Virus record (IMG/VR): IMGVR_UViG_3300042889_001503
Span: 186,001-250,000 of that record
Length of the DNA: 64,000 nt
Source: a virus
Strand: one strand, 5' to 3'
The notes under the pieces were generated by a model. That model was not told the origin of the DNA and did not search any database. It was given only the letters and a program-made list of their open reading frames with translations. Position numbers and translations under genes: made by a program. Each line of letters starts with the position of its first letter. Position 1 is the stretch's first letter. Shown here piece by piece: positions 14,836 to 57,517 of the stretch.

Positions 14836-15381
14836 ATGGGAAAATTTGAAAGTTGGTTGCAAAATTTAATTGAAAAAGAAGGATTTGACGAGGCTAAGTC
14901 AATGTTGGGTTTAACCACAATAGAATTAATTCAGAAAAGTGATTGTCAAATAGATTTTGAGATGGCAAATTATATTCTTGATTATTTATTTAGGGAAAAA
15001 CTATTTCCTTGGAAATATAAAAAATGTCAATTAAGTTATGATGGGTTTAGTGGTGTAGTTAATTGGGACTGTGATTGGAGTGGTGATTTTTATAATGATT
15101 ATAATGATGAAACAACATCTAGTATGGCGACACCATTTTGGGATGGTTATGGTAATATTCCCGTTGACACTGAATTATATAAGGCGGTGGATTCAAATAA
15201 TAATGGGATTTTATTAGGACCTGATGATTTGGATAATAGTCAATCTTACACTTCTATTGAGTGGAATAAAAAATTTGATAATCTTGCCTCATACAGTATG
15301 TGGATAAGAAGATTTTACTTACCTAACGTTTATGAAGCAATCTCACAACATTTGGATAATTATCGTAATTACGAAGATTAA
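14836..15381 (+). CDS. hypothetical protein
   Basis: 181 residues starting MGKFESWLQNLIEKEG, with Asp/Tyr/Trp-rich middle (VNWDCDWSGDFYNDYND). Its stop shares TTAA with the convergent zinc-finger gene. Confidence 0.75.
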   Translation: MGKFESWLQNLIEKEGFDEAKSMLGLTTIELIQKSDCQIDFEMANYILDYLFREKLFPWKYKKCQLSYDGFSGVVNWDCDWSGDFYNDYNDETTSSMATPFWDGYGNIPVDTELYKAVDSNNNGILLGPDDLDNSQSYTSIEWNKKFDNLASYSMWIRRFYLPNVYEAISQHLDNYRNYED

Positions 15382-16196
15382 ATTAAAATTCTCTCGTCTG
15401 TTTTCTTTAGATATAAATCTTTTGTGTCTTTAGTTACATATAATAATACGTCACCATTGTCATATTCTGTGTAATCATCAACAATTTCCTCAGACATACC
15501 CAACAATATTGTTTGGGAATTAAACCCAAAATTTTTAGCATCTTCTCCATCTAATTGTTCGTCAGGTTTTGCTTTGAAGAAATAATCTTTCCAACGACCA
15601 CTCCAAGATATATAATCTAAATATTGAATCTCAACTTGTTCATCACTATATATATTTCCTGTTGCGTCACAATTTGAACAATTTACGTCTCCATCGCCAC
15701 CACAATAATTGCAAGATTCTTCTCCACTACCATTACATCTTCCACAAGTCATTCTTCCGGAACCTTCACACATATCACATTCTTCACCGGCATCTTCATC
15801 CATACCTGAACCACCACAATAGTCACAATCTTCTTCACCATTACCATCGCAACGATTACATTCTGTTTCACCTGTTCCATCACAATAATCACAAGGTTCG
15901 CGTCCGTTATGACAATCAGGACAATCAACTTCAGGTTCGGTATTGTAGATTTCAATTAACTCAACGGAATACATATTGGTTTCAATTCTGTCATAAGCTT
16001 CATCAATGTCTTGTTCCTTATTATTAATAGGAATTAAGAAACTATAAAAAATAACATCTTCAGGTGACATTCTATCTAATAATGGTTTGAAGTGTTTATC
16101 ATTCCATAAAGATTGGTATACGGAGTTAGGTGATGAGTAGTCATCAAAGTAGTTTGCCGTTTTCTTAACTAATGAAAGTAATTTGTGTTTTTCCAT
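15378..16196 (-). CDS. DnaJ-like CxxCxGxG zinc-finger protein
   Basis: 272 residues. Eight CxxC pairs lie between residues 92 and 176 (92, 102, 113, 124, 140, 151, 162, 173), mostly 11 residues apart with CxxCxGxG spacing as in the DnaJ cysteine-rich domain. DnaJ has four such repeats; this has eight, and no J domain or DnaJ C-terminal domain is visible. It probably binds several zinc ions and may act in protein folding or assembly. A TATATTTG box lies 14 nt upstream. Confidence 0.8.
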   Translation of the reverse strand: MEKHKLLSLVKKTANYFDDYSSPNSVYQSLWNDKHFKPLLDRMSPEDVIFYSFLIPINNKEQDIDEAYDRIETNMYSVELIEIYNTEPEVDCPDCHNGREPCDYCDGTGETECNRCDGNGEEDCDYCGGSGMDEDAGEECDMCEGSGRMTCGRCNGSGEESCNYCGGDGDVNCSNCDATGNIYSDEQVEIQYLDYISWSGRWKDYFFKAKPDEQLDGEDAKNFGFNSQTILLGMSEEIVDDYTEYDNGDVLLYVTKDTKDLYLKKTDERILI

Positions 16197-23020: not shown

Positions 23021-24613
23021 ATGAAATTATTAGAAAGTATAAAACAAATTATTACTGAGGCTTCAAAGAAAAAAATCTTAATGGATAAGATTGGTTTTAA
23101 TGAGGATAATGCTGACCTATTAGATAAATTGTGTGGTCCGTTATCGGTTTGGATGGCAAAAAAAATGATGGAGTTCCAACAATATAGTAGTGGAAGGTTG
23201 GGTAATCAAGTAAAAACGGGTTCTGAATTAATAGACCAAATGAATAACAATGGTGTTTTAAGAATGAAACAGAGTGGTATCCAATCTATTATGGATTGGG
23301 TTCGGGTTGGTTTAAACGGTAATTTGGGCGAATATAAAGATTTACCTTTTGTTGACTTGGTTTTACAGTCAAAAGAATGGCACGATAATTTGGAAATTGG
23401 ACAGGGTGATATTAATTATAAAGAACAAAACCCAACTATATTAGATTTCACTGATGAAAATGGAAATGGGTTTTATTGGGCTGATTTGAATACAAAAAAC
23501 TCATCAGAAGAATGTAATAGAATGGGACATTGTGGAAGAAGTTCTTATGGATATCTTTATTCATTAAGACAAGTAATTCCGATTAACAACAAATATAAAT
23601 TAAACAAATCAGTTCTAACTGCGGCAATTGGTGAGGATGGTATTATGTATCAGTTGAAGGGTGTTAAGAACTCAAAACCAAAAGATGAATACCATCAATA
23701 CATTCAACCGTTATTCTATGTGTTAGGTGGTGAAGGTGAAGAAGATGATTATCTAATTCAAGGTTTTGGAACGGAGTACGCATCTGAACAGGATTTTAAA
23801 TTGTCTGACTTACCGGAACAAACAATCAAAGAATTGTATCAAAATAGACCGGAGTTGTTCTCGTCAAGACCTATGCAACGATTGTTAGATAAGATGGGTA
23901 TTATTGAAATGGAACCATTACCAACAGGATTCTCATTAGAAATTAAACCTGAGGATTTTGATGATTATGTTGATGGATGTACCTATCGTACTTATACTAA
24001 TAGAACAACCGGAAAACAAACAAGAACAAGTATTTTTGTTGAAATAATGGCTGGTGATGCTTGGGATTTGTGGAATCAAGACGGTTACGAAGATTTTGGT
24101 AGTTATTTCCAATATACAGTAGACAAACCAACCGAAGAAAGATTGTGGGATATTGTTAGAAAAATGGCAGAAAGAGATGGTGTTGAATTAGATGAGGATT
24201 TAGATTTAGAAGATTCTATCAAACAAGTGGATGATGATTGGGAAATAAGAAATGCTATTGGTGGTGCGATAAATGATGCTGACGCAAATGATTATGTAGA
24301 TTTTCTACAGAAAGAAATTGAGTCGGCGTTAGAGTTTTATGGTAATGTATATGAATTTAATGACACCGGAGCCAAAATTCAAGTCGATTTAGCTAATTTA
24401 GTTGATATTGATGAAGGTTGGGTTGATGAAATATTTGAAAATCATATGAATAGGGATGGTAAGTATGATTTAGAAGGAATATTTAATGAATTATTATCTG
24501 AAAGTCATATTGATAAACCTGACTTTGACCCCGATGACAGATGGTATCCATCACCTGATGATAGTGTTGTAAATGAAAATGTTAATTATAGATTAGATGA
24601 TATAAGTATATGA
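23021..24613 (+). CDS. large helical-leader protein
   Basis: 530 residues. Leader MKLLESIKQIITEASKKK, with I-T-E at 11-13. The first half contains FYWADLNTKNSSEECNRMGHCGRSSYG, then LTAAIGEDGIMYQLKGVKNSKP. The pattern (Cys-x-x-Met-Gly-His-Cys-Gly followed by a beta-hairpin) recalls PcfJ-like and related phage proteins, but the link is weak. The C-terminal half is very acidic. Catalytic function unknown. Four nt overlap with the glycosyltransferase. Confidence 0.75.
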   Translation: MKLLESIKQIITEASKKKILMDKIGFNEDNADLLDKLCGPLSVWMAKKMMEFQQYSSGRLGNQVKTGSELIDQMNNNGVLRMKQSGIQSIMDWVRVGLNGNLGEYKDLPFVDLVLQSKEWHDNLEIGQGDINYKEQNPTILDFTDENGNGFYWADLNTKNSSEECNRMGHCGRSSYGYLYSLRQVIPINNKYKLNKSVLTAAIGEDGIMYQLKGVKNSKPKDEYHQYIQPLFYVLGGEGEEDDYLIQGFGTEYASEQDFKLSDLPEQTIKELYQNRPELFSSRPMQRLLDKMGIIEMEPLPTGFSLEIKPEDFDDYVDGCTYRTYTNRTTGKQTRTSIFVEIMAGDAWDLWNQDGYEDFGSYFQYTVDKPTEERLWDIVRKMAERDGVELDEDLDLEDSIKQVDDDWEIRNAIGGAINDADANDYVDFLQKEIESALEFYGNVYEFNDTGAKIQVDLANLVDIDEGWVDEIFENHMNRDGKYDLEGIFNELLSESHIDKPDFDPDDRWYPSPDDSVVNENVNYRLDDISI

Positions 24614-27664: not shown

Positions 27665-27806
27665 ATTATTATTTGTGTTCCTTGGATGGTGTGTATCAGA
27701 TATCCGAGAGAACTACGGTGATATGAAATCTCGTTATGTTTTGGAAACCGACCCTGAATTATTTGAACTTCAAGAATTTGTTAAAGAACTAATTAAGAAA
27801 AAATGA
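27633..27806 (+). CDS. small basic protein
   Basis: 57 residues, MSLKKIKIRVKLLFVFLGWC then ETDPELFELQEFVKELIKKK. Overlaps the previous frame by 32 nt; coding status moderate. Confidence 0.5.
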   Translation: MSLKKIKIRVKLLFVFLGWCVSDIRENYGDMKSRYVLETDPELFELQEFVKELIKKK

Positions 27807-27917
27807 ATGATTGTGTAACTTTTTTGATGTCTGTTACGTATAATAACTGACAATAAAGTTGATGAGATAATAAATAAAAAAAACTTTAAAAAAGTTTGGT
27901 AGTATTAAAAAAAGTGT

Positions 27918-31897: not shown

Positions 31898-32092
31898 ATG
31901 AAGTTAATTATAACAGAGTCACAATATGAAACCATCAACGAGATGATTAAACTTAACATTAAGGTAGGTGATACCATTATGGGTGGAAAATTTAAGAACA
32001 AGAAGGTTGTTGTGAAGACAATCGACAAGAATGAAAAGGGGGATATTACAATAAACGGTAAACCATTGTTACGTTTTAGAATCATAGAATAA
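31898..32092 (+). CDS. short-leader protein
   Basis: 64 residues: MKLIITESQYETINEMIKLN leader (I-T-E at 5-7), then a small basic domain (GGKFKNKKVVVKTIDKNEKGD) with an SH3/OB-like look. First gene of the 31.9-34.4 kb cassette; stop overlaps the next ATG. Confidence 0.78.
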   Translation: MKLIITESQYETINEMIKLNIKVGDTIMGGKFKNKKVVVKTIDKNEKGDITINGKPLLRFRIIE

Positions 32093-32421
32093 TGAAGATA
32101 TTGATTAAAGAAGATAAAAGAGATAGAATTGCCAAACGGTTATTAACTGAGGAATTCTCCGGAATGTATGAAGATGTTAATTATATGACAGATTCACGGG
32201 GGGAACACAAAACAATCGAATACCGTAATGGTGAAGGAATCATAATGATTTACGGTAATACTGATAATATTTTATATATCTGTGAAGATGTCACTCGTCC
32301 ACTTAATCTACTTAGTTACACACCAAAACAACTTAAAGATGTTATTGGTGAATGGTTCTCAGAGTTTTTTGAATTACCGGTTCAATATATTCATCACGTA
32401 AATAAATCAGTGTTAAACTAA
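32092..32421 (+). CDS. short-leader, WF-tail family protein
   Basis: 109 residues. Leader MKILIKEDKRDRIAKRLL (I-K-E at 5-7). Beta-rich middle and the C-terminal motif GEWFSEFFELPVQYIHHV, the same position and pattern as in 40227, 52934 and 58641. Confidence 0.78.
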   Translation: MKILIKEDKRDRIAKRLLTEEFSGMYEDVNYMTDSRGEHKTIEYRNGEGIIMIYGNTDNILYICEDVTRPLNLLSYTPKQLKDVIGEWFSEFFELPVQYIHHVNKSVLN

Positions 32422-32422
32422 T

Positions 32423-33016
32423 ATGAAAGAGTTAATTAAAAAAATATTACGAGAGGAAGTTCAGAAGAGATTTACAAAATCTAATCAAAGTTTTGAGCGT
32501 CTTATTATTAAACAGATGGAGTCTTTAATATCCGAAACAAATAGAGTTGTTGTCCCACCTGAAGAGAATTATGGAAACTTTAATGAGGAGTGGTGTAAAG
32601 GTGATAAAATTATTATGCAGGCAAGATACTTTTTCAGTAGTGAAGATAGTGATGAAGAAAAGTTTTTTGGTGGTGATTTATATGTTAATAAAGAAGAAAT
32701 TGATTTTTTATCTCAAATGTTACAGGTTAGAAAACCCTATTTACTTAATGTAATTACCGAATGGTATGATGAGAAATACGCTACCAAGTTTGGTCAAGAA
32801 ACCGGACACCCGGAATTGGAGATTGATGAGACTCACGAAACGGATAGTGACCATAAATGTTATAAAATGATTAATACTTCAAACCTAAGTAGAGAATATA
32901 TGATTGATTATATTGATACAAATACATTATATAAACTTAGTGAATTGGAAAAACTACCTGATGATGAGTTAGAAAGAAAATACCGAAGTGTTTATAATAT
33001 CCAATTAAATAAGTAA
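32423..33016 (+). CDS. helical-leader protein
   Basis: 197 residues, leader MKELIKKILREEVQKRF (L-R-E at 9-11). The body contains VITEWYDEKYATKFGQETGH, a variant of the W(F/Y)-x-x-K-Y motif placed internally. 1-nt overlap with the next ATG. Confidence 0.76.
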   Translation: MKELIKKILREEVQKRFTKSNQSFERLIIKQMESLISETNRVVVPPEENYGNFNEEWCKGDKIIMQARYFFSSEDSDEEKFFGGDLYVNKEEIDFLSQMLQVRKPYLLNVITEWYDEKYATKFGQETGHPELEIDETHETDSDHKCYKMINTSNLSREYMIDYIDTNTLYKLSELEKLPDDELERKYRSVYNIQLNK

Positions 33017-33396
33017 TGAAAGTATTAATAACTGAGAGCAGATTAGAAAGTTTAATCATTGATTACTTAAATGATTCGTATTACCCTGATTATGGGTGGG
33101 CAAATCCTGATGTTTATCAAAAAGATGTTAAACAATATGGTGATGTTCTTTTCTTTGTTGATGACCGAGAATCTTATATTTATTATGGTTGTAATGCAAA
33201 CGCCGGTCCGGAAGATGAGTTCTTTGCGGGTTATGGTCATCTACATAATTATAAATGTCCTTTACTGTCAATATACCCCCTTATAACTCAAAGATTGGAT
33301 TCTACTTTTGGTGACATATGGAAACCAATATTCAAGAAATGGTTTGAAGATAATACAGGGTTAGAGGTTACTCAATTAACAACAAATTTCATATAA
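33016..33396 (+). CDS. short-leader, WF-tail family protein
   Basis: 126 residues. Leader MKVLITESRLESLIIDYLND; C-terminus FKKWFEDNTGLEVTQLTT. The middle YGWANPDVYQKDVKQYGDVL is similar in layout to the 58641 protein. Confidence 0.78.
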   Translation: MKVLITESRLESLIIDYLNDSYYPDYGWANPDVYQKDVKQYGDVLFFVDDRESYIYYGCNANAGPEDEFFAGYGHLHNYKCPLLSIYPLITQRLDSTFGDIWKPIFKKWFEDNTGLEVTQLTTNFI

Positions 33397-33695
33397 TGAA
33401 AGTATTAATAAAGGAAAGTAAGTATAATAATTTAATTGAGAACTATATCCTCAATGGTTATCCTGTAGTTAAAAACGTGACATTTACAACAAAGGATGTT
33501 TACTTGGCTAGTGGTAATAAAAGTGAGAGAAGAACAATTCAAAGAAACATCATTAATGTTGGGTTTAGAGGAGGTGAGATGCAGAATAGTCCAACACGAA
33601 CATTAAGAGAAATTAGAGCTGATATTAATCGTATGTTTGGTTTGGATATTGATATGTCAGGTTCACATTGGGGTATTGAGTATAAAATGTTGTAA
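33396..33695 (+). CDS. short-leader protein
   Basis: 99 residues, leader MKVLIKESKYNNLIENYI. C-terminal IRADINRMFGLDIDMSGSHW is a variant tail without the WF pair. Confidence 0.76.
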   Translation: MKVLIKESKYNNLIENYILNGYPVVKNVTFTTKDVYLASGNKSERRTIQRNIINVGFRGGEMQNSPTRTLREIRADINRMFGLDIDMSGSHWGIEYKML

Positions 33696-33697
33696 GT

Positions 33698-34027
33698 ATG
33701 AGAATAGTAATCACAGAAAATAAAAGAGATATGTTATTTAGAGAGGAGTTTAAAAACCTGTTTAATAAATTAACTCCAACAAGAGCCGGACATACCGAGA
33801 ACATTATCTACATATACTTTGATGAGGTATATGATGATAATGCGGTTACAGGGTTGGTATATAGACCAAGTAATCGTCAATTAATTATATATCCGGATTA
33901 CTTTATTAGTTTAAGAATGTTTGTTTCATCTGAAGAAGAACTAAAGGAAATGATAGGAATATGTTATGAGGAATTAACTGATAAAATAGTTAGATATTCT
34001 TGGATTTGGATAGATAATGAGTTATGA
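33698..34027 (+). CDS. short-leader protein
   Basis: 109 residues, leader MRIVITENKRDMLFREEF. Middle strand ENIIYIYFDEVYDDNAVTGL; tail ELKEMIGICYEELTDKIVRY. Overlaps the next gene by 4 nt. Confidence 0.76.
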   Translation: MRIVITENKRDMLFREEFKNLFNKLTPTRAGHTENIIYIYFDEVYDDNAVTGLVYRPSNRQLIIYPDYFISLRMFVSSEEELKEMIGICYEELTDKIVRYSWIWIDNEL

Positions 34028-34353
34028 AAATATTAATCACAGAAAATAAAAGATACCAATTAGCCTACAAGATATTAGACGATATTTTGAATGGATTGAC
34101 TCGTGAGGACATTGATTTAAATAAGGATTCCGTATTTAGTAACCAACAAATAATATTCAGAGATAACAGCGATGACATTTTTATGTGGTGGTCCGAAAAA
34201 TACGATTTATTGGAAGTTAATAAAGTTATGTGGGAACCACTAAGATTGTTCTCATTCAGTGGAGAAGAACTTGAAAGAGTTATTCATTGGTGGGTTAAAA
34301 ATAGATTAAGAATAGAACCGGAGGAGATTAATTTAATTGGTGACTATTATTAA
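34024..34353 (+). CDS. short-leader, WW-tail family protein
   Basis: 109 residues, leader MKILITENKRYQLAYKIL. Tail LERVIHWWVKNRLRIEPEEI follows the family pattern. Last gene of the cassette. Confidence 0.78.
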   Translation: MKILITENKRYQLAYKILDDILNGLTREDIDLNKDSVFSNQQIIFRDNSDDIFMWWSEKYDLLEVNKVMWEPLRLFSFSGEELERVIHWWVKNRLRIEPEEINLIGDYY

Positions 34354-34852: not shown

Positions 34853-35260
34853 ATGGACATACAGGAAAACGTATATAGAATTAAACAAATAATGACTGAA
34901 GGTAAGGACGCTTATGTCTCAAGAGCTCGTTCTGACCAAGAGTATGAGGAAGAATATCCAAAATGGAAAAAAACTATAATTAAACTTTTAGAGATGGAAA
35001 TAGATTCAAAGGCAGAAATTAACAATGGTAAAATAATAGTTTTGCTTAATGGGAAAAACCTTGACAAAAATCTAATTAAATATGATAAAATAAATGAAAG
35101 ATTATGGTATGATTATTCCTTACAAGAAAATTTGGAAGGTTATATACCATACGGTTATTTATCAAGACATTTTAAATACGGACTTCAGGACTTCTTCAAA
35201 AAACATTTCCCGGACTATGGTGTTAGAGAACTAACGGCTGCGAGTTTAGTAAGTTACTAA
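34853..35260 (+). CDS. helical-leader protein
   Basis: 135 residues, leader MDIQENVYRIKQIMTEGK (M-T-E at 14-16, slightly off the [I/L]-x-E rule). The C-terminal LSRHFKYGLQDFFKKHFPDY is related to the WF-tail helix. Unknown function. Confidence 0.75.
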   Translation: MDIQENVYRIKQIMTEGKDAYVSRARSDQEYEEEYPKWKKTIIKLLEMEIDSKAEINNGKIIVLLNGKNLDKNLIKYDKINERLWYDYSLQENLEGYIPYGYLSRHFKYGLQDFFKKHFPDYGVRELTAASLVSY

Positions 35261-36532: not shown

Positions 36533-36558
36533 GGGAAAGTAATTTTTCCCTTTTTTTT
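36533..36558 (+). terminator. rho-independent terminator
   Basis: GGGAAA / TTTCCC stem followed by eight T; immediately before a late box. Confidence 0.8.
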
Positions 36559-36567
36559 ATATTTATA
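36558..36567 (+). promoter_or_regulatory. late-type box TATATTTATA
   Basis: 3 nt before ATG 36571. Confidence 0.6.
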
Positions 36568-36570
36568 GTT

Positions 36571-37341
36571 ATGAACTTACACGAAGATATACAAAGAATA
36601 AGACAAATGATGATTTCTGAGGAGATGGTCCAATCAGATGCGTGGAAATCAATCAAAAAAACATTAGACATTCTTAAAAAGAAAAAGAAAGTTTTAATCT
36701 TAAGTTGTTCCAATAGATATAATTGGGATGAAAAAAACCTTGACATACCAAAATCAAAGATGATTGCAATGTATCTTAACGATGAGTTAAAAGACTCAGT
36801 GTTAATTGATGTTTCCGAACTTAACATTGTTCCTTGTGAGGGGAATGTATCAAGAAAAGACGGGAACAGTTGTGGATTACTTAAATCTATGCTCAAAGAT
36901 AAGAAAAAGAATCCATCCGGAGACCATAGATGTTGGGCAAGTTATAACAATCCAAAGGATGAGTTATGGAAGATATCCAAAGAGTTATTTGAGTCAGATG
37001 CTGTTGTATTCTTTAGTTCAATTAGATGGGGACAAACCAATATGTTCTATCAGAATTTAATTGAGCGATTGACTTGGATTGAGAACAGACACGCAACATT
37101 GGGGGAATCAAATCTTGTTAAAGATATTGAGACAGGATTCATTTGTGTTGGACAGAATTGGAATGGTGAGAACGTAACTGAAACACAGAAAGAAGTTCAT
37201 AAGTTTTATGGATTCAAACCAAACAATGACTTGTATTGGAATTGGCAATATACCAAAGATGTGAATGATGAAACTCAAAAATCATATAAGGATTCACACA
37301 AGAAGTTTATTAAAGATACAAAATTACCTGAAGATAAATAA
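36571..37341 (+). CDS. NAD(P)H/FMN reductase-like flavodoxin fold with helical leader
   Basis: 256 residues. Leader MNLHEDIQRIRQMMISEEM (I-S-E at 15-17). After it, KKVLILSCSNRYNWDEKNLD, then LKDSVLIDVSELNI, a Cys-containing insert and DAVVFFSSIRWGQTNMFYQN LIERL match the NADPH-dependent FMN reductase fold (phosphate loop after strand 1, then SS-x-R-W-G-Q...K/N-LIER). An oxidoreductase preceded by a packaging-type leader is unusual. The substrate is unknown. Confidence 0.78.
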   Translation: MNLHEDIQRIRQMMISEEMVQSDAWKSIKKTLDILKKKKKVLILSCSNRYNWDEKNLDIPKSKMIAMYLNDELKDSVLIDVSELNIVPCEGNVSRKDGNSCGLLKSMLKDKKKNPSGDHRCWASYNNPKDELWKISKELFESDAVVFFSSIRWGQTNMFYQNLIERLTWIENRHATLGESNLVKDIETGFICVGQNWNGENVTETQKEVHKFYGFKPNNDLYWNWQYTKDVNDETQKSYKDSHKKFIKDTKLPEDK

Positions 37342-38066
37342 TGAACTTACGACATGACATAAAAAGAATATTAAGGGAAGAAACAAATAAAGATTTAACT
37401 TCGGTAATAGAAATGTTATTAGAGGGATTTGTTAATGACCACAAAGACATTCTTTGTAAGGTTGAGGTTAAGCACCCGGACAAGAGAACCAAACTACCAC
37501 ATTCGGATAATGTTTATGAGAATTACAGAGCAACATTTTATTTAATTGCTCATAAAGGTGGGTATTCAACAACAAGAGCTCAATTGATGGATAACGTAAT
37601 GAATGAGGTGTGGGATTTGGTATATAATTATACCGGACAGAAATTAGATATGTTTACCAAACACGTAAAGAGTTGTGACGATATTATAAAAGAGAGTAAA
37701 GATAATAGTATTTCTGATATGATAAAAACTTTGGGGGTTTCTGATGCCATTAAGTATTTTGGGAATTACTACACAATTGAGCCATACTTAAAAGTGGTTG
37801 ATAAAGTTAATTTTATTAAAGAAAAAGTTAGAGAATTAAGTGATGATGGTAGTGGTGTTGGTTTACACGAGATAAATGAAGAGCCACTTCATTATAGTGA
37901 TGAAGATGGGGAGGAACATCAAATAGAATGGTTAGGACTAACAAGTGTAGACATTAGTGTATATGAAGATGAGTATAGTGGTCATTTAAGGGACTATTAT
38001 TCTAAGTATGAAAGTTTACCTGTGCAAATAATTGAGGAATTGGTTGAGATATTATTAAACCACTAA
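37341..38066 (+). CDS. helical-leader protein (family with 38070, 38618)
   Basis: 241 residues, leader MNLRHDIKRILREETN (L-R-E at 11-13). Residues about 130-230 (AIKYFGNYYTIEPYLKVVDK, FIKEKVRELS) align with the 38618 protein, showing paralogy. N-terminal half unrecognised. Confidence 0.77.
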   Translation: MNLRHDIKRILREETNKDLTSVIEMLLEGFVNDHKDILCKVEVKHPDKRTKLPHSDNVYENYRATFYLIAHKGGYSTTRAQLMDNVMNEVWDLVYNYTGQKLDMFTKHVKSCDDIIKESKDNSISDMIKTLGVSDAIKYFGNYYTIEPYLKVVDKVNFIKEKVRELSDDGSGVGLHEINEEPLHYSDEDGEEHQIEWLGLTSVDISVYEDEYSGHLRDYYSKYESLPVQIIEELVEILLNH

Positions 38067-38069
38067 GAT

Positions 38070-38615
38070 ATGAATTTAAACGAGAACATACATAGAATCC
38101 ATCAGATGATGGGTGTAGTGAGTGAAGATGTGAGTCCAAACACTGTTAAAACAATAATTGATATATTAGGTATTAGAGATGCTATTAATTATTATGGGGG
38201 TTATGAGAACCTTAAAAAATATCTAAATTTGGTTTATGATAGGAAGAGTGGTAAATGGGTGCACGCGAGTACATTACAGACCAATCCTGTTGATTTAAAT
38301 ACTATTACATCAAGAGAAGATAAGATTGAGTTTATTAAGGATACAATTTTTACTCAATACTACGGATTGTTTACTTATGGAGATGAAGGTTGGGACGAGA
38401 GTGATTATTCTGTGTTAGAGAGTACTGAAACTTATGAAAAGGTAGCATTTACATACTATACTGATGAATTAAATGTAACAACATTTTATAGAAATGAGAA
38501 TGGTGAGTTTTCATCTCAAACCGAAAATGATGACCATAGTGAAACAATTAAATATGAGGATTTACCGGATGATATGATTAATAACGCATTTGAGTTTATA
38601 GCTAAAAAAATTTAA
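38070..38615 (+). CDS. helical-leader protein, paralogue
   Basis: 181 residues. MNLNENIHRIHQMMGVVSED leader; the first 44 nt of this gene are identical to those of 38618. Body motif AINYYGGYENLKKYLNL relates it to its neighbours. Confidence 0.78.
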   Translation: MNLNENIHRIHQMMGVVSEDVSPNTVKTIIDILGIRDAINYYGGYENLKKYLNLVYDRKSGKWVHASTLQTNPVDLNTITSREDKIEFIKDTIFTQYYGLFTYGDEGWDESDYSVLESTETYEKVAFTYYTDELNVTTFYRNENGEFSSQTENDDHSETIKYEDLPDDMINNAFEFIAKKI

Positions 38616-38617
38616 TT

Positions 38618-39076
38618 ATGAATTTAAACGAGAACATACATAGAATCCATCAGATGATGGGGATTATCAATGAGAATAAAGTGGTTGATGTTGTTCAAGA
38701 AATGGGGTTATACCAAGCCACTCGTTATTTTGGGGGTTATGACAAAGTTACAAAATTAATGGGGGATTATGTGTTCTCAAATGAAGAAATGATTGATTTT
38801 ATTAGAGAGGCTATAAAACATTTAGCTTACAAACATAATTCAACCGGGATATCTACGTATGAATTAAATATGAATTCTATTCCATATGGTTCTCCTGATG
38901 AGGAGTTACATCAAATTGAGTATTTCAACCCGGAGTATGTTACCATAGATGTTTATGGTGGTGAAGAGTATGAAAGACACAGAAGTAGTTATACTGAACG
39001 ATATGAGGATTTGGATGATAATACATTAGATGAGGTTTTCCTGTTTATGGTTGACGCAGTAGAACACTACAAATAG
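38618..39076 (+). CDS. helical-leader protein, paralogue
   Basis: 152 residues. MNLNENIHRIHQMMGIINEN leader (I-N-E at 17-19). ATRYFGGYDKVTKLMGDY then MIDFIREAIKHLA parallels the 37341 protein. Confidence 0.78.
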   Translation: MNLNENIHRIHQMMGIINENKVVDVVQEMGLYQATRYFGGYDKVTKLMGDYVFSNEEMIDFIREAIKHLAYKHNSTGISTYELNMNSIPYGSPDEELHQIEYFNPEYVTIDVYGGEEYERHRSSYTERYEDLDDNTLDEVFLFMVDAVEHYK

Positions 39077-39078
39077 AT

Positions 39079-39492
39079 ATGAGTTTACAAGATACCATAA
39101 GAAGAATATTAAGAGAGGAATCCTATTCTCCGGCGAGTGATGAATATACTCCGGGGGAATATATTGTTCATAAATCAAATCCTATATGGAGAGACAACAT
39201 AGAACTTACCGGATTACAAACATCGGTGGGGGAATGTTATCAATCACACGTCGGTGACGATGAAGAATGTAAACCATCCATATTTGCAACAGATTCATTA
39301 GATGAAAAAGATATGTTTGATTCCACATATGACGATGACATTTGGATTATCAATACGGAATGTGCCGGGGTTACTTGGTATAAAGACAAACATTTTGATG
39401 GTGGATATTACAAACATCATATAGTTACATTCGAGAACATATCACCGGACTGTCTTAGATTATTATATAAAGGAACGGGGAAAAGTTATTAA
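39079..39492 (+). CDS. helical-leader protein
   Basis: 137 residues, leader MSLQDTIRRILREESYSPAS (L-R-E at 11-13). The body (PIWRDNIELTGLQTSVGECY, PSIFATDSLDEKDMFD, TWYKDKHFDGGYYKHHIVT) has the layout of ADP-ribosyltransferase-like phage proteins that carry IFAT and KD motifs, but I cannot confirm it. Confidence 0.75.
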   Translation: MSLQDTIRRILREESYSPASDEYTPGEYIVHKSNPIWRDNIELTGLQTSVGECYQSHVGDDEECKPSIFATDSLDEKDMFDSTYDDDIWIINTECAGVTWYKDKHFDGGYYKHHIVTFENISPDCLRLLYKGTGKSY

Positions 39493-39553
39493 TGTATATT
39501 ATAATATACAAAACACAATAAAAACGGGGATAATGTATATTATAGTATACATT
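39491..39553. repeat. two near-identical palindromes
   Basis: TGTATATTATAATATACA (39493-39510) is a perfect 18-nt palindrome, and a near copy ATGTATATTATAGTATACAT lies at 39533-39552. They bracket the 5' side of gene 39561. Confidence 0.75.
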
Positions 39554-39560
39554 TAACACT

Positions 39561-39818
39561 ATGGAGGCAGTATTAAAAATAGTAGATAAGTTAATAGATA
39601 AATTCATATTACCTATGGATGATGATATTATGGAATATCACATAACATCATATGATGATACAATAGAGATTACATTTTGGATGGCAGGAACCGAATCGGA
39701 AGTTGAGGAGGAGATTGTGGAAGAATGTTGGACCGTTTTAAGTACACTTGGTTCAATACCCTACAGATTTTTATTTAGATTCACTACAGAGGGGGACAAT
39801 TTCTACGAATACTCATAA
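39561..39818 (+). CDS. small acidic protein
   Basis: 85 residues, MEAVLKIVDKLIDKFILPMD; mixed alpha/beta with EVEEEIVEECWTVLSTLG. Sits between palindromes and a direct-repeat pair, suggesting regulated expression. Confidence 0.72.
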   Translation: MEAVLKIVDKLIDKFILPMDDDIMEYHITSYDDTIEITFWMAGTESEVEEEIVEECWTVLSTLGSIPYRFLFRFTTEGDNFYEYS

Positions 39819-39870
39819 TATAAGTCCTAAACCTTATAAACCACTAATATAAGTCCTAAACCTTATAAAC
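39816..39870. repeat. 26-nt direct repeat pair
   Basis: Exact copies at 39816-39841 and 39845-39870 (core ATAAGTCCTAAACCTTATAA, itself an imperfect dyad), separated by 3 nt at the convergence of 39561 and 39877. Confidence 0.8.
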
Positions 39871-47729: not shown

Positions 47730-48062
47730 ATGTTTTCAGCAGGTGGAGTTTATGTAATGGTAGCAGGAATCCTATTGGGATTAGCTGTTATAGGTGGGTC
47801 AGTTTATTATGTTAATAAAATGTTTGCTGATAACACTCAGGAAATATTGGTTCGGTTTATTTTATTAATATTCACCTCATTGGTTGCGTTATTTATTGTT
47901 GATAAGGTAATTGCTTGGCAGGTTAAACTATTGAGTGATGAGCAGAATGGGCAATTATTTGATTTGATTAAAACATTGGTGTTAATGATATTCTCGTATT
48001 ACTTTGGAACTAAAGAAGGAGTTGAAACCAATGGTGACCAAAATAAGAAAGATAAAGAATGA
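47730..48062 (+). CDS. small membrane protein, holin-like
   Basis: 110 residues from MFSAGGVYVMVAGILLGLAV. Two to three membrane helices (about 3-24, 37-56, 72-85), the last ending in IFSYYFGTKEG, and a charged C-terminus NGDQNKKDKE. The size, topology and (Y)FG(T/S)-x-EG end resemble phage holins. A late-type box fits lysis timing. No endolysin is adjacent. Confidence 0.55.
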   Translation: MFSAGGVYVMVAGILLGLAVIGGSVYYVNKMFADNTQEILVRFILLIFTSLVALFIVDKVIAWQVKLLSDEQNGQLFDLIKTLVLMIFSYYFGTKEGVETNGDQNKKDKE

Positions 48063-48364
48063 AAATTATTATAACAGAAGAACAGTATGGTAGAATGTTT
48101 AATTCCAAACTTTGGTTAAGACGTAACTATGATTTGGTTAAACAGGAGTTGAAGGCTACAATGGACTTCACCCGGGACCGTATCTGTGATAAAGATGAAT
48201 TTGAAAATTTTGAATATTATTTCTTCTCCGTGTTTATGGATTGCCTTCACCCTTATTATTATGAGGAAGAGAATTTTGATTATAAGGAATTTCAAACCAC
48301 GTTAACTGATATGTTCTATGTTGAATGTACCGAGTTTTATTTTAACGGTAGAGAGAAATGTTAA
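48059..48364 (+). CDS. short-leader protein
   Basis: 101 residues, leader MKIIITEEQYGRMFNSKL (I-T-E at 5-7). Acidic, Tyr-rich body. Overlaps the holin-like gene by 4 nt; opens the second cassette. Confidence 0.77.
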   Translation: MKIIITEEQYGRMFNSKLWLRRNYDLVKQELKATMDFTRDRICDKDEFENFEYYFFSVFMDCLHPYYYEEENFDYKEFQTTLTDMFYVECTEFYFNGREKC

Positions 48365-48384
48365 CACCCCTTTTAAAGTTAAGG

Positions 48385-48394
48385 GATATTTATT
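48385..48394 (+). promoter_or_regulatory. late-type box GATATTTATT
   Basis: 4 nt before ATG 48399. Confidence 0.62.
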
Positions 48395-48398
48395 TGAT

Positions 48399-48764
48399 AT
48401 GAGAATTATTATAACAGAAAGTAAATTTAAAAGTATGGTTACCAAAATGGTTGGGTATGATTTATCCCACCGTATTGAGATGATTACAAGTTGGGAGAAT
48501 TTAACCGGTTCGGAAAAACATAATGTATTTGGTGATAATAAATCTATTTTTGTTCAGTATCAAAACCATTATGGTCCGATGTATATATTTTCAAATTTTA
48601 AAGGACATAATTATTTGGCTCAAAATCAAAAAGGTAAACTATGGTTTATTGTTGATACAAGTACTGGATACGAAATAGATTACTATGATTTTTTACAAAT
48701 GCTTAATCTTGATATGACGGGTATTAGTTTAAGAAAAATAATCGATGAATTTGCTGAAGAATGA
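48399..48764 (+). CDS. short-leader protein
   Basis: 121 residues from MRIIITESKFKSMVTKMV, start set by the late box. Middle NKSIFVQYQNHYGPMYIF. No family. 4-nt overlap with the next gene. Confidence 0.77.
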   Translation: MRIIITESKFKSMVTKMVGYDLSHRIEMITSWENLTGSEKHNVFGDNKSIFVQYQNHYGPMYIFSNFKGHNYLAQNQKGKLWFIVDTSTGYEIDYYDFLQMLNLDMTGISLRKIIDEFAEE

Positions 48765-49099
48765 AAATAATAATTACAGAAAGTAAAGTTGGGCAAGTAA
48801 AAAATTTAGTACAAGAAATTATTGATGATGAGTTAAATAACTTACGTCAAGAGGCTGATGAAGAGTGGGGTTTGGGTGAAATGGATGAGATAAATGAGGT
48901 TGGTTCTGTTGAAAAGATTGTTGTTGATGAAATAAAAACAACTGATGGTATTAGTGTTAATGTCAATCTTTATTTAAACACAGATAGAGAAGATTTTGAA
49001 ATAATTTTACCAATGATTGAATATACTATTGAGCAATGGATTCCTAATGCTAAAATTCATATAAACAAAATATATCTAAATGAAAATAATAATTACTGA
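48761..49099 (+). CDS. short-leader acidic protein
   Basis: 112 residues, leader MKIIITESKVGQVKNLVQ; Glu-rich helix then a beta-alpha half. Overlaps the next gene by 20 nt: the end of this ORF encodes NENNNY in the same bases as the next MKIIITE. Confidence 0.76.
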   Translation: MKIIITESKVGQVKNLVQEIIDDELNNLRQEADEEWGLGEMDEINEVGSVEKIVVDEIKTTDGISVNVNLYLNTDREDFEIILPMIEYTIEQWIPNAKIHINKIYLNENNNY

Positions 49100-49400
49100 G
49101 AGACAGAATAATTTATTGATGGAGGATTTACCCATTAGTCTTCGTAGACGAATTAATTATAATATTCTTAAAGACCATTTGGATTTTTCCATATTAGAAT
49201 CCGTTAATCCTTGTGATTATAGTACATTAGGGGATTTTATTGGTGAGATGTGTGATATGATGGTTGTGGATTTTTTAGATGATTTTGAATATGATAGCGG
49301 TCTAAAAGTTAGTCCAAAAGATAAAGATGATTTTTATTATTTTATGACTGATAATTTTGCTGATTACCTTCAAGAATTTTATGATAAACAATGTGCGTAA
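49080..49400 (+). CDS. short-leader acidic protein
   Basis: 106 residues, leader MKIIITERQNNLLMEDLP. Asp-rich C-terminal half. Start is nested inside the previous gene. Confidence 0.76.
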   Translation: MKIIITERQNNLLMEDLPISLRRRINYNILKDHLDFSILESVNPCDYSTLGDFIGEMCDMMVVDFLDDFEYDSGLKVSPKDKDDFYYFMTDNFADYLQEFYDKQCA

Positions 49401-49428: not shown

Positions 49429-49920
49429 ATGAAAAAAATTGTAAGATTAACTGAAGGAGAGTTAACAAATTTAATAAAAAGAATATTAAAGGAGGATTCG
49501 ACAAAAAATAATTGTCATAAAGAATATACAAACCCTGAATCCAATACAGACCCATACATATATAGAATGGGTCCGGAATGTATTTGGCAAACTAAAAGTG
49601 ATAAAACAAAAAAACAAATAGGTAAAGAAATACCTGATTGGATTTCATTATATAAAAATGAAAAGGCAAACCAAAAACTTGATAAATGGTTCCCAAACGC
49701 TAAATCGGATTGTTCAAAATGTAAAAATGGTGGTATTAAAAAAACCCCACCATCTGATTTAATTAAGAAAAAAGTTGATTTAGTTAAGGGTAAAATTGGT
49801 GAAAATAAATGTCCTAAAACCATAAATTGTATGCCGTCACCTAATGGTAAACCTAACCCTTGTGATGATTTTTTTATTAGTTACTGTATCAAATCAGGTA
49901 AGACTTCGGCAACATATTAA
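49429..49920 (+). CDS. helical-leader Cys-rich protein
   Basis: 163 residues from MKKIVRLTEGELTNLIKRIL, containing two candidate sites: L-T-E at 7-9 and L-K-E at 20-22. The body has CxxC (DCSKCKNGG) and further Cys (NKCPKTINCMPS, PCDDFFISYC), suggesting disulfides or metal. Confidence 0.76.
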   Translation: MKKIVRLTEGELTNLIKRILKEDSTKNNCHKEYTNPESNTDPYIYRMGPECIWQTKSDKTKKQIGKEIPDWISLYKNEKANQKLDKWFPNAKSDCSKCKNGGIKKTPPSDLIKKKVDLVKGKIGENKCPKTINCMPSPNGKPNPCDDFFISYCIKSGKTSATY

Positions 49921-49925
49921 TAATT

Positions 49926-50387
49926 ATGAAAAAGAAAATTATAAAATTAACGGAATCAGATTTAAAAAACATTGTGATGAGAATTATCAATGAACAATTT
50001 GATATGGACTACTACGACATTATTTTGGATTTATATAACGAGGTTGGTCTTGAGGGTATGACTGATGAAGAAATTGAATATTTGAAAAGTGGCGGTGAGA
50101 GTAATGTCCCTGAAAGATTTTTGGGTGGAGACTTGGATATTGATTCTGAGGAATCTGAAGATTTTGGTGGACTTGATAGATTCAAGGAAATTATGGACGG
50201 ATACAATCATAAGATTGTGGATACCGCTCCCGACGGTAAGTTGAGAGTTGTCTTTAGAGAAAACCCTGAGATATTGGAAAGACTTGATGGTGTGGTTCCG
50301 GAATCATTAATAGAAGTTAGACAAGGACATATAATCATTCTTGTTCCTGAAAATTGGACGGATGATATTTTCGGAGAAGAAATATAA
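49926..50387 (+). CDS. helical-leader protein
   Basis: 153 residues, MKKKIIKLTESDLKNIVMRI start, with L-T-E at 8-10 and I-N-E at about 21-23: the same compound leader as the previous gene. Acidic body. Confidence 0.76.
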   Translation: MKKKIIKLTESDLKNIVMRIINEQFDMDYYDIILDLYNEVGLEGMTDEEIEYLKSGGESNVPERFLGGDLDIDSEESEDFGGLDRFKEIMDGYNHKIVDTAPDGKLRVVFRENPEILERLDGVVPESLIEVRQGHIIILVPENWTDDIFGEEI

Positions 50388-56083: not shown

Positions 56084-57517
56084 TCAAATTTGTTTTCCAT
56101 ATTCAATAACGGTTTCAGTTTTTTCTTCTTGACGGTGACCGCCAACATAAGTTCCACATACTTTATTACCATTATCAATCACGTCCTCAATTTGAGTCTC
56201 CCATCTAATATATAGAAGACTTGTTGATGGGTCGGTATAATTTCCTGACATAGTTTTTTTTACACCGTTTTTAATCACACCATTAATTCTTCCTTTGTGG
56301 TGATATACATCTTCATAGGTTTCTTTAACACCTTCACTAATAACGTCCTTTATTAAATCTGTTGGGACATCCCAATCACATTCAATGGTGTCCGTAATAC
56401 CTTTGTTAATAATCTTATCAATTATGTTTTCACCAACATATTGACGTGGGGTGGAACTTCTCACACCATCTCTAACGACAAGATGTGATTCTAAAATAAG
56501 TTCTCTACCGCTAGTATCTAAAATCAGAAGAGCATTCTTTTTTTGTTTTGTTTCTTTTACACCATTTTTAAGTGCGTCTTCCATTTTATTATCAAAAAAT
56601 TTCATCACATCAACGTGACTAGTTTCTTTAACACCAATATCAATCACTTTATAAGCATCAACCCTAAGTTTTGACATATGATATTTAGTTTCCTTCACAC
56701 CCTTATCAATTACTTCTTCACATAAAAATTGGAATTTATCTCCCGATTTGGTTTCTTTCACACCTTCTTTAATGACACCATTAATCCAACTTTGATTTTC
56801 GTACTCACTATATTGAGTGTCTCTCACACCATTTTGAATAACATCTTTAACGTCACCTCTAAATCCTTTATACTCGTAAATTTCTTTCACCCCATTTTGA
56901 ATGATGTCGTTAATATCTCCAAGTTTTTTATCTGAACTTCCGTTATCGGTATCTTTAACAAGGAATGGTCGATGGAAATGGAGGGGGTCAGTTTTCTTCA
57001 CACCATTTTCAAGAGTACCCTCAACTGATAAGGTTCTTTTATCGCCCCAATAATCGGTGTTCTTCACCCCATTTTGAATGATATCGTCAACCCCAAGAAG
57101 AGTACGTCGTAATGTGCTATTAGTTTCTTTCACCCCATTCTCAATGGTATCGTCAACGGACCAACACGTTTTCATATGAGCCATCTTAGTTTTATTTACA
57201 CCATTTTCAAGAGTATCTTCAAATTGTTGTTTTCTATCCCGGGCATCTCTAAAGAGTGTAACATAAGTTAACTCTTTATTTATAATATTGTCTTCCACCC
57301 ATTTTGTGATGAGGTGTTGATTCTGAACGCAATCCAACGAAGCGTAAGCAAAAACACTTTTAAAAAAGTTGTAATTATACCACAGAGTTTTATTCTCAGT
57401 TAATTCAATCACCCATTGTTTAGTCTCAGTAAAGATTAACCAAGTGGAATCATTGTGGGTGTAGGTATCCACACCTTCGGTAAATTCGTTGATTAGTTTA
57501 TGTATAATTTTTTCCAT
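56084..57517 (-). CDS. repeat protein, about 13 copies of a GVK(E/K)T module
   Basis: 477 residues. From about residue 75 to the C-terminus a unit of 20-36 residues recurs, with core (D/I)-x-(I/L)-x-x-G-V-K-(E/K)-T, for example DDTIENGVKETNS, DDIIQNGVKNTDY, EGTLENGVKKTDP, NGVIKEGVKETKS, DVISEGVKETYED. Several units are 22 residues, and each core looks like a short helix. The N-terminal 75 residues are non-repetitive (FTEGVDTYTHNDSTWLIFTE). A binding scaffold or fibre-like role is conceivable; no family recognised. Its own TATCTTTG box lies 4 nt upstream. Confidence 0.82.
   Translation of the reverse strand: MEKIIHKLINEFTEGVDTYTHNDSTWLIFTETKQWVIELTENKTLWYNYNFFKSVFAYASLDCVQNQHLITKWVEDNIINKELTYVTLFRDARDRKQQFEDTLENGVNKTKMAHMKTCWSVDDTIENGVKETNSTLRRTLLGVDDIIQNGVKNTDYWGDKRTLSVEGTLENGVKKTDPLHFHRPFLVKDTDNGSSDKKLGDINDIIQNGVKEIYEYKGFRGDVKDVIQNGVRDTQYSEYENQSWINGVIKEGVKETKSGDKFQFLCEEVIDKGVKETKYHMSKLRVDAYKVIDIGVKETSHVDVMKFFDNKMEDALKNGVKETKQKKNALLILDTSGRELILESHLVVRDGVRSSTPRQYVGENIIDKIINKGITDTIECDWDVPTDLIKDVISEGVKETYEDVYHHKGRINGVIKNGVKKTMSGNYTDPSTSLLYIRWETQIEDVIDNGNKVCGTYVGGHRQEEKTETVIEYGKQI

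Follow-up and report, generated by a model that had tools for sequence, protein, structure and literature searches.

The operon and its leader genes

Genes 38070 and 38618 sit in a compact five-gene operon (36571-39492, plus strand) in which a short leader opens every gene. The operon lies in a window of 64,000 nucleotides, namely, positions 186001-250000 of a virus record of 272,437 bp; coordinates are those of the window unless the full record (G000) or a relative is named. A terminator-like hairpin with a T run, GGGAAAGTAATTTTTCCCTTTTTTTT (36533-36558), and a late-type promoter box, ATATTTATA (36559-36567), 3 nt before the ATG, precede the operon. In the first gene, the class B leader MNLHEDIQRIRQMMISE (36571-36621; for the classes, see below) opens a conserved 256-aa protein that, by eye, looks flavodoxin-like. 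Gene 37341 combines the class C leader MNLRHDIKRILRE (37341-37379) with a body (37380-38066) that shares homology with the 38618 body in its C-terminal half. The product of gene 38070, of 181 aa, starts with the class B leader MNLNENIHRIHQMMGVVSE (38070-38126), with cleavage predicted after E19 from the site pattern, and its body (38127-38615), a remote paralogue of 38618, is confined to this phage and near-identical records. Gene 38618 (152 aa in all) joins the class B leader MNLNENIHRIHQMMGIINE (38618-38674) to a compact domain (38675-39076) that is confidently modelled by AF2. The last gene, 39079, carries the class C leader MSLQDTIRRILRE (39079-39117) before a body (39118-39492) with a modelled ADP-ribosyltransferase-like fold. 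All these features are on the plus strand. Beyond the operon, two near-identical (95%) copies of the palindrome-like TAATGTATATTATAATATACA, which are possible operators, flank the gap before gene 39561 (39490-39551), and two adjacent 26-nt direct copies of TAATATAAGTCCTAAACCTTATAAAC follow that gene (39816-39870).

The phage is T4-like, with a 272 kb genome and 327 genes; the record has a portal gene among its T4-type head genes and encodes a sigma-70 family factor (163675 of G000). Between the portal and prohead protease genes, outside the window, lies a gene for ribosomal protein bS21 (27723-27878 of G000, minus strand). A bS21 gene at such a position is a signature of bS21-encoding phages with freshwater Bacteroidetes as predicted hosts (PMC9723584), and we therefore group the present phage with these. 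The genome was handled locus by locus, and genes were called with a simple script in G000 and four related records (G002, G004, G006 and G007). Searches of annotated phages found no relevant match, whether the query was the protein of 38070 or of 36571, the DNA of the operon or a short leader.

The shared start of genes 38070 and 38618

The first-pass annotation described the first 44 nt of 38070 and 38618 as identical and the remainder of the two proteins as distantly similar, and both statements are borne out. The identity between 38070-38113 and 38618-38661 covers exactly 44 nt from the ATG, with only 1 nt more upstream, and encodes MNLNENIHRIHQMM plus the first two bases of Gly15. An exact match of this length in 272 kb is far beyond chance; given the same 14 amino acids, the use of the same codons has P ~9e-4 under the genome's codon usage. 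Past codon 15, the gapped alignment of the two genes retains 34/133 identical amino acids (26%) and 187/399 identical nucleotides (47%, codon-aligned), and over ungapped nt 61-160 the identity is 33/100. At the nucleotide level, then, the identity stops with the leader, although the two bodies are remote, old paralogues. Because the bodies are identical at 47% of the nucleotides and the start at 100%, the bodies must be old and the shared start is young or homogenised. The leader of 36571 is related to those of 38070 and 38618, with a nucleotide identity of only 32/45.

Identity confined to the leader is also seen at the nucleotide level between genes of other phages. Across five phages, 29 gene pairs are identical at 30 or more of 36 positions at the start codons, compared with none at codons 51-62. 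In G004, the neighbours 2253 and 2763 have unrelated bodies and share 43 nt of leader along with 40 identical nt upstream, a terminator-like hairpin included; in G002, the neighbours 76189 and 76665 show a leader-limited identity of 32 nt, against a background of none.

Comparison with a related locus, L020/G004, bears on how the pair arose. Leaving 38070-38617 out of the window makes the two colinear for 1604 nt, with zero indels; L020/G004 has the flank of 38070 upstream and the sequence of 38618 downstream, and the joint falls inside the 44-nt repeat. Since L020/G004 is without the whole 548-bp unit (38070-38617), leader and body were gained or lost here together, with the leader as the joint, and the proposal in the first-pass annotation that the leader alone had been copied is not established for 38070 and 38618. 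No ortholog of 38070 was found in the relatives examined, so that a gain in this lineage appears more parsimonious than repeated loss.

Leader classes and the exchange of leaders between bodies

N-terminal 22-mers were compared with internal segments in five phages, using only protein pairs with non-homologous bodies. The number of such pairs scoring 45 or more was 881 for the N-termini and 1-35 for the internal segments. The N-terminal clusters comprised several leader families alongside some tail-fibre repeats and signal peptides, the last of which served as a check on the method. The leader families are as follows: class A, MKIIITE (MKxxITE/IKE); class B, MNLxENIxRIxxMMGxIxE; class C, MKELIRxILRE; class D, MKKIxRLTESDLxxIVKRVIxE; class E/E2, ...VISEQ; and class F, MKLIxxIxxIITE. 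In T4, taken as a positive control, once apparent paralogous families such as homing endonucleases are set aside, the matches listed include only the capsid-targeting sequence (CTS) of IPII and IPIII, MKTYQEFIAE. Five leader strings had no occurrence in the literature searched.

Counted by regular expression, leader genes number 46-50 per genome in four large records of 327-391 genes. The present record has about 49 among its 327 genes, a few of them doubtful (e.g. 173217 and 186936), and 32 are in the window. Besides those of the operon, the window contains, on the plus strand, a class F leader, MKLLESIKQIITE (23021-23059); a gene run with class A and C leaders (32092-34353; genes 32092, 32423, 33016, 33396, 33698 and 34024), among them the class C leader MKELIKKILRE (32423-32455); a class B leader, MDIQENVYRIKQIMTE, on a GKDAYVSR body (34853-34900); a gene run with class A leaders (48059-49400; genes 48059, 48399, 48761 and 49080); and two class D leaders, MKKIVRLTEGELTNLIKRILKE (49429-49494) and MKKKIIKLTESDLKNIVMRIINE (49926-49994).

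The spread of a leader over unrelated bodies is most evident in public virus contigs. A class B pattern limited to residues 1-14, searched at the DNA level, matched at least 93 distinct proteins in at least 39 body clusters (at least 45 representatives by a k-mer rule), and a class D pattern limited to residues 1-12 matched at least 133 proteins in at least 106 body clusters. Thus, as with T4-type capsid targeting, a short N-terminal sequence is common to proteins with unrelated mature parts. When a class D position matrix was run over all positions of the proteomes, the only non-N-terminal hit was a single protein, 168565, with its G002 ortholog. This protein (168565-169881 of G000, outside the window) has 438 aa, is kept in all relatives and contains an internal class D motif (KESYRLTENEMVGLIEKIVLEQ); its C-terminus (INEEFDRMKSLISY) resembles another leader class.

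Conversely, the same body is found behind different leaders. The 37341 body has a class C leader here and a class F leader in G004 (MKLIRTIKSIVNE, with a body 88% identical) and in G002 (MKLIGTIKSILVE). The 39079 body is preceded by class C here, by class F in G002 and by class A in G006/G007, and, when these are aligned, all three leader types keep the Glu where the swap occurs. Another body family has a class C leader in G002 and a class B leader in G006, and within G006 the genes 79695 and 80163 have bodies that are 69% identical and starts that differ. With classes B and D on many unrelated bodies and bodies re-tagged in relatives, the leader is indeed a movable module, as had been suggested from the 44-nt repeat. 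The genes at 31898-32092 and 39079-39492, which are separate leader genes here, form one fused gene in G006/G007, in which the 31898 body comes after the 39079-type body.

Of the 29 records of 107 kb or more that carry leaders, 25 encode an S77 protease, compared with 2/4 random records of at least 100 kb, a size-matched control that is weak because large records are too few. A cultured phage of Flavobacterium, vB_FspM_immuto_2-6A, has distinct leader families that are built alike, MKKQILSEQFKRMQFLAGIITE↓S in two genes and MENFDLKKFLVENRLTYNSKLINE↓G in four, two of which are just upstream of the terminase gene; cleavage would give the new N-termini S(23)EMWDRD, S(23)QFNEEL and G(25)QALSP. Its capsid protein contains IVSE↓A (here and below, arrows mark cleavage points, predicted ones included).

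The leader end as a predicted protease site

The prohead protease of T4, gp21, is reported to cleave after L/I-X-E (PMC9026906), and the leaders end in this motif at the joint with the mature part, as T4-type capsid-targeting sequences do. A D at the cut position in T4 prevents processing yet leaves targeting intact (PMC9026906). For the two classes whose search patterns stop short of the motif (at residue 14 for class B and residue 12 for class D), its frequency can be assessed independently. Among the matches listed, [ILV]-x-E was present in 42/45 unrelated class B bodies, with E at residue 17-20, compared with 6-7/45 in controls, and in 105/106 unrelated class D bodies, with E at residue 22 in 97 of them, compared with 9-14/106 in controls. 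The regular expressions for classes A, C and F include the Glu, so their site counts, at or near 100%, are circular and are left out. Two points on class A speak against the capsid-targeting reading proposed below: cleavage as predicted would leave a leader of only 7 residues, and its E belongs to the class definition.

The record encodes both partners expected of such a site. Its prohead protease is a Peptidase_S77 homologue of gp21 (E 5e-25; PHROG head maturation protease), and its major capsid protein is related to T4 gp23 (PHROG 6.5e-67). In this phage and three relatives, the capsid protein has NQASFLINE↓AT before the conserved core, where T4 gp23 has FGSFLTE↓A. Since the propeptide region is split in the MAFFT alignment of this capsid protein with T4 gp23 and gp24, the equivalence of the sites is judged by the SFL(x)xE↓A string common to both and by its place before the conserved core. 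A gp21-type protease is thus found together with a gp23-type capsid protein that has a similar site, as in T4-type capsid targeting.

The AF2 model of 38618 has a loose leader helix (residues 3-14), a linker (14-17) with pLDDT below 50 and Glu19 at the edge; the body after residue 19 is confident, and the leader helix is separate from it.

A late-type promoter box before leader genes

The box [AGT]TATTTAT[AT] was found upstream of 82/102 operon-first leader genes and of 158/576 other genes (odds ratio 10.8, p 4e-24). The TAnnTTTG box, which we take to be the Bacteroidota-type promoter box, showed the opposite trend (7/102 versus 131/576). The [AGT]TATTTAT[AT] box also precedes the scaffold gene and several tail or sheath genes, as well as some non-leader genes; we read it as a probable late promoter. 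Of 37 structural genes, only 17 are preceded by the box, and it is therefore the contrast between leader and non-leader genes that carries the argument for a late promoter. The median distance from the late-type box to the ATG is 4 nt in leader genes and 14 nt in others; a box so near the ATG would give nearly leaderless mRNAs.

The bodies

Pfam searches with the first ten bodies yielded nothing significant, matches were few overall, and PADLOC gave one weak match. The domains that could be named include peptidoglycan-binding, P-loop kinase, ParB-like and phosphatase domains. No structural relative of the 38618 model was found in the PDB. For the 39079 body, the model of which is of moderate confidence (pLDDT 76), the first six PDB matches are KptA/Tpt1 RNA 2'-phosphotransferases (best E 4.8e-3, probability 1.00, TM 0.51), with weak ART matches next in the list, and so the predicted fold appears to be like that of ADP-ribosyltransferases. 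Alt of T4 is a packaged and ejected ADP-ribosyltransferase (PMC9026906), and the body with the corresponding predicted fold is the one that has been re-tagged three ways. Most bodies are without a family assignment, and a role as ejected effectors is not independently visible in them.

Two other proteins of the window have conspicuous repeats: a 477-aa protein (56084-57517, minus strand) contains many imperfect VIxNGVKETxxx repeats, and a 272-aa protein (15378-16196, minus strand) contains a long, DnaJ zinc-finger-like run of CxxC repeats.

Leaders as putative capsid-targeting propeptides

Taken together, these observations make it highly probable, in our judgment, that the leaders are cleavable capsid-targeting propeptides on ejected cargo, that is, that they represent the T4 internal-protein system in a much expanded and reshuffled form. 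Under this scenario, a short helix at the N-terminus, amphipathic and some 7-25 residues long, would bring unrelated cargo into the prohead core late in infection, and the gp21-type protease would then cut after [ILV]-x-E at the joint of leader and body. The freed cargo would stay in the virion and subsequently be ejected with the DNA. As such a tag would work on almost any body, at the DNA level it would act as a module and a recombination joint, so that new bodies could be gained, lost or re-tagged beside an existing leader, and the 44-nt identity of 38070 and 38618 would be a recent trace of such an event.

The closest parallel is the CTS of the T4 proteins IPI, IPII, IPIII and Alt. In both cases, a short N-terminal propeptide with a gp21-type L/I-x-E end is found on divergent proteins in a phage with homologues of gp21 and gp23; in the internal proteins of T-even phages, the CTS is the sole common part (PMC3012670). 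The differences are considerable, however: four named internal proteins in T4 compared with approximately 46-50 leader genes per genome here; several leader classes, with re-tagged bodies and leader DNA serving as a recombination joint; and a host group that, here, is predicted to be Bacteroidota. With the T4 sequence MKTYQEFIAE, the leaders have only the short helix and the L/I-x-E pattern in common. We propose, therefore, that the leader system works like the T4 CTS but avoid the word homologue, given that the sequences are not similar and that packaging and cleavage are predictions. The T4 head propeptides of gp24 (MAKINELLRE↓S), gp22 (MLKEQLIAE↓A) and IPIII (MKTYQEFIAE) are all built like the leaders, and class C (MKELIRQILRE, MSLQDTIRRILRE) resembles that of gp24 in length, pattern and end; the gp24 and gp22 propeptides, however, are on shell or scaffold proteins, whereas class C leaders are on many small accessory proteins.

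Two other systems invite comparison. The ejection proteins of SPN3US and phiKZ have AXE and S/A-X-E propeptides that the prohead protease cuts after Glu (PMC10052503, PMC9026906). As proposed here, many ejected head proteins are matured by post-Glu cleavage in these phages; by contrast, the cleavage motif is another one, and the propeptide passages of these papers describe no shared, swappable leader. The PeSL promoter-terminator cassettes (Arbiol 2010 and Comeau 2014, as cited in PMC4503421) are also short repeats, lying between genes of T4-like phages, through which genes are shuffled as modules, and in G004 the repeat of one leader pair extends to the upstream terminator hairpin. According to that citing account, however, PeSL are non-coding, combining a terminator with an early promoter, whereas the window repeat consists of 44 nt of coding leader plus 1 nt, so that the repeat is not such a cassette.

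Could the leaders be tags for some other destination, such as a host protein, the membrane or the tail, with [ILV]-x-E as a binding motif rather than a cleavage site? Several unrelated leader classes and the many bodies without assignment would fit such a function, as would the signal peptides that cluster separately at N-termini, given that other targeting signals evidently exist. Nevertheless, the motif corresponds both to the specificity of gp21 and to the capsid cleavage site of the phage itself, the leader-gene promoters are of the late type, the Glu is retained when leader types swap, and the leaders have no visible hydrophobic core, all of which renders another destination improbable.

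It is still harder to reconcile the data with a DNA or RNA element at the gene start, for example, one for translation initiation on leaderless late mRNAs or by ribosomes with phage bS21. The closeness of the late-type box to the ATG of leader genes, the phage-encoded bS21 and the ATA codon for Ile7 in 87/89 class B leaders are compatible with such an element. However, the codons for Leu3, Glu5, Arg9 and Ile10 vary freely while the residues are constant, the signal formed by [ILV]-x-E at residue 19 or 22 belongs to the protein, internal operon genes also carry leaders, and the class D motif occurs inside one conserved protein, away from start codons; we regard this explanation as very improbable. 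No better does a plain tandem duplication fare, in which the bodies diverged, strong purifying selection kept the start and nothing moved: the bodies are indeed tandem remote paralogues (26% aa), and the 38618 leader in L020, 44/44 identical when the rest of the gene is 11% different, is strongly conserved, but the synonymous positions of the pair are identical as well when G002 has the same leader at 39/44, bodies at 47% nucleotide identity cannot match the age of a 100% identical leader, the leader is on dozens of unrelated bodies and one body can have several leaders, and a second adjacent pair, with unrelated bodies, has in common 43 nt and at least 40 upstream nt, so that this account, too, has very little likelihood.

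It seems fairly likely that a large T4-like lineage infecting Bacteroidota has an open-ended virion-loading system that relies on a few interchangeable tags. Each tag, fit for dozens to more than a hundred unrelated proteins, would determine what enters the head and is injected, and its DNA would double as the recombination joint at which cargo is acquired, lost or re-tagged. Injected proteins usually become known only after virion proteomics; if the leaders serve as targeting tags, sequence would reveal which proteins are injected by a phage group that is both large and ecologically common, and any protein with such a tag could be read as a likely injected effector. The injected proteins would then number approximately 45-50 per phage, with more than 100 unrelated families among the matches listed, and some of this cargo may consist of anti-defence or host-takeover factors. 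The phages would, furthermore, possess a DNA-level route to recruit cargo genes, by insertion beside, or recombination within, a ready-made tag.
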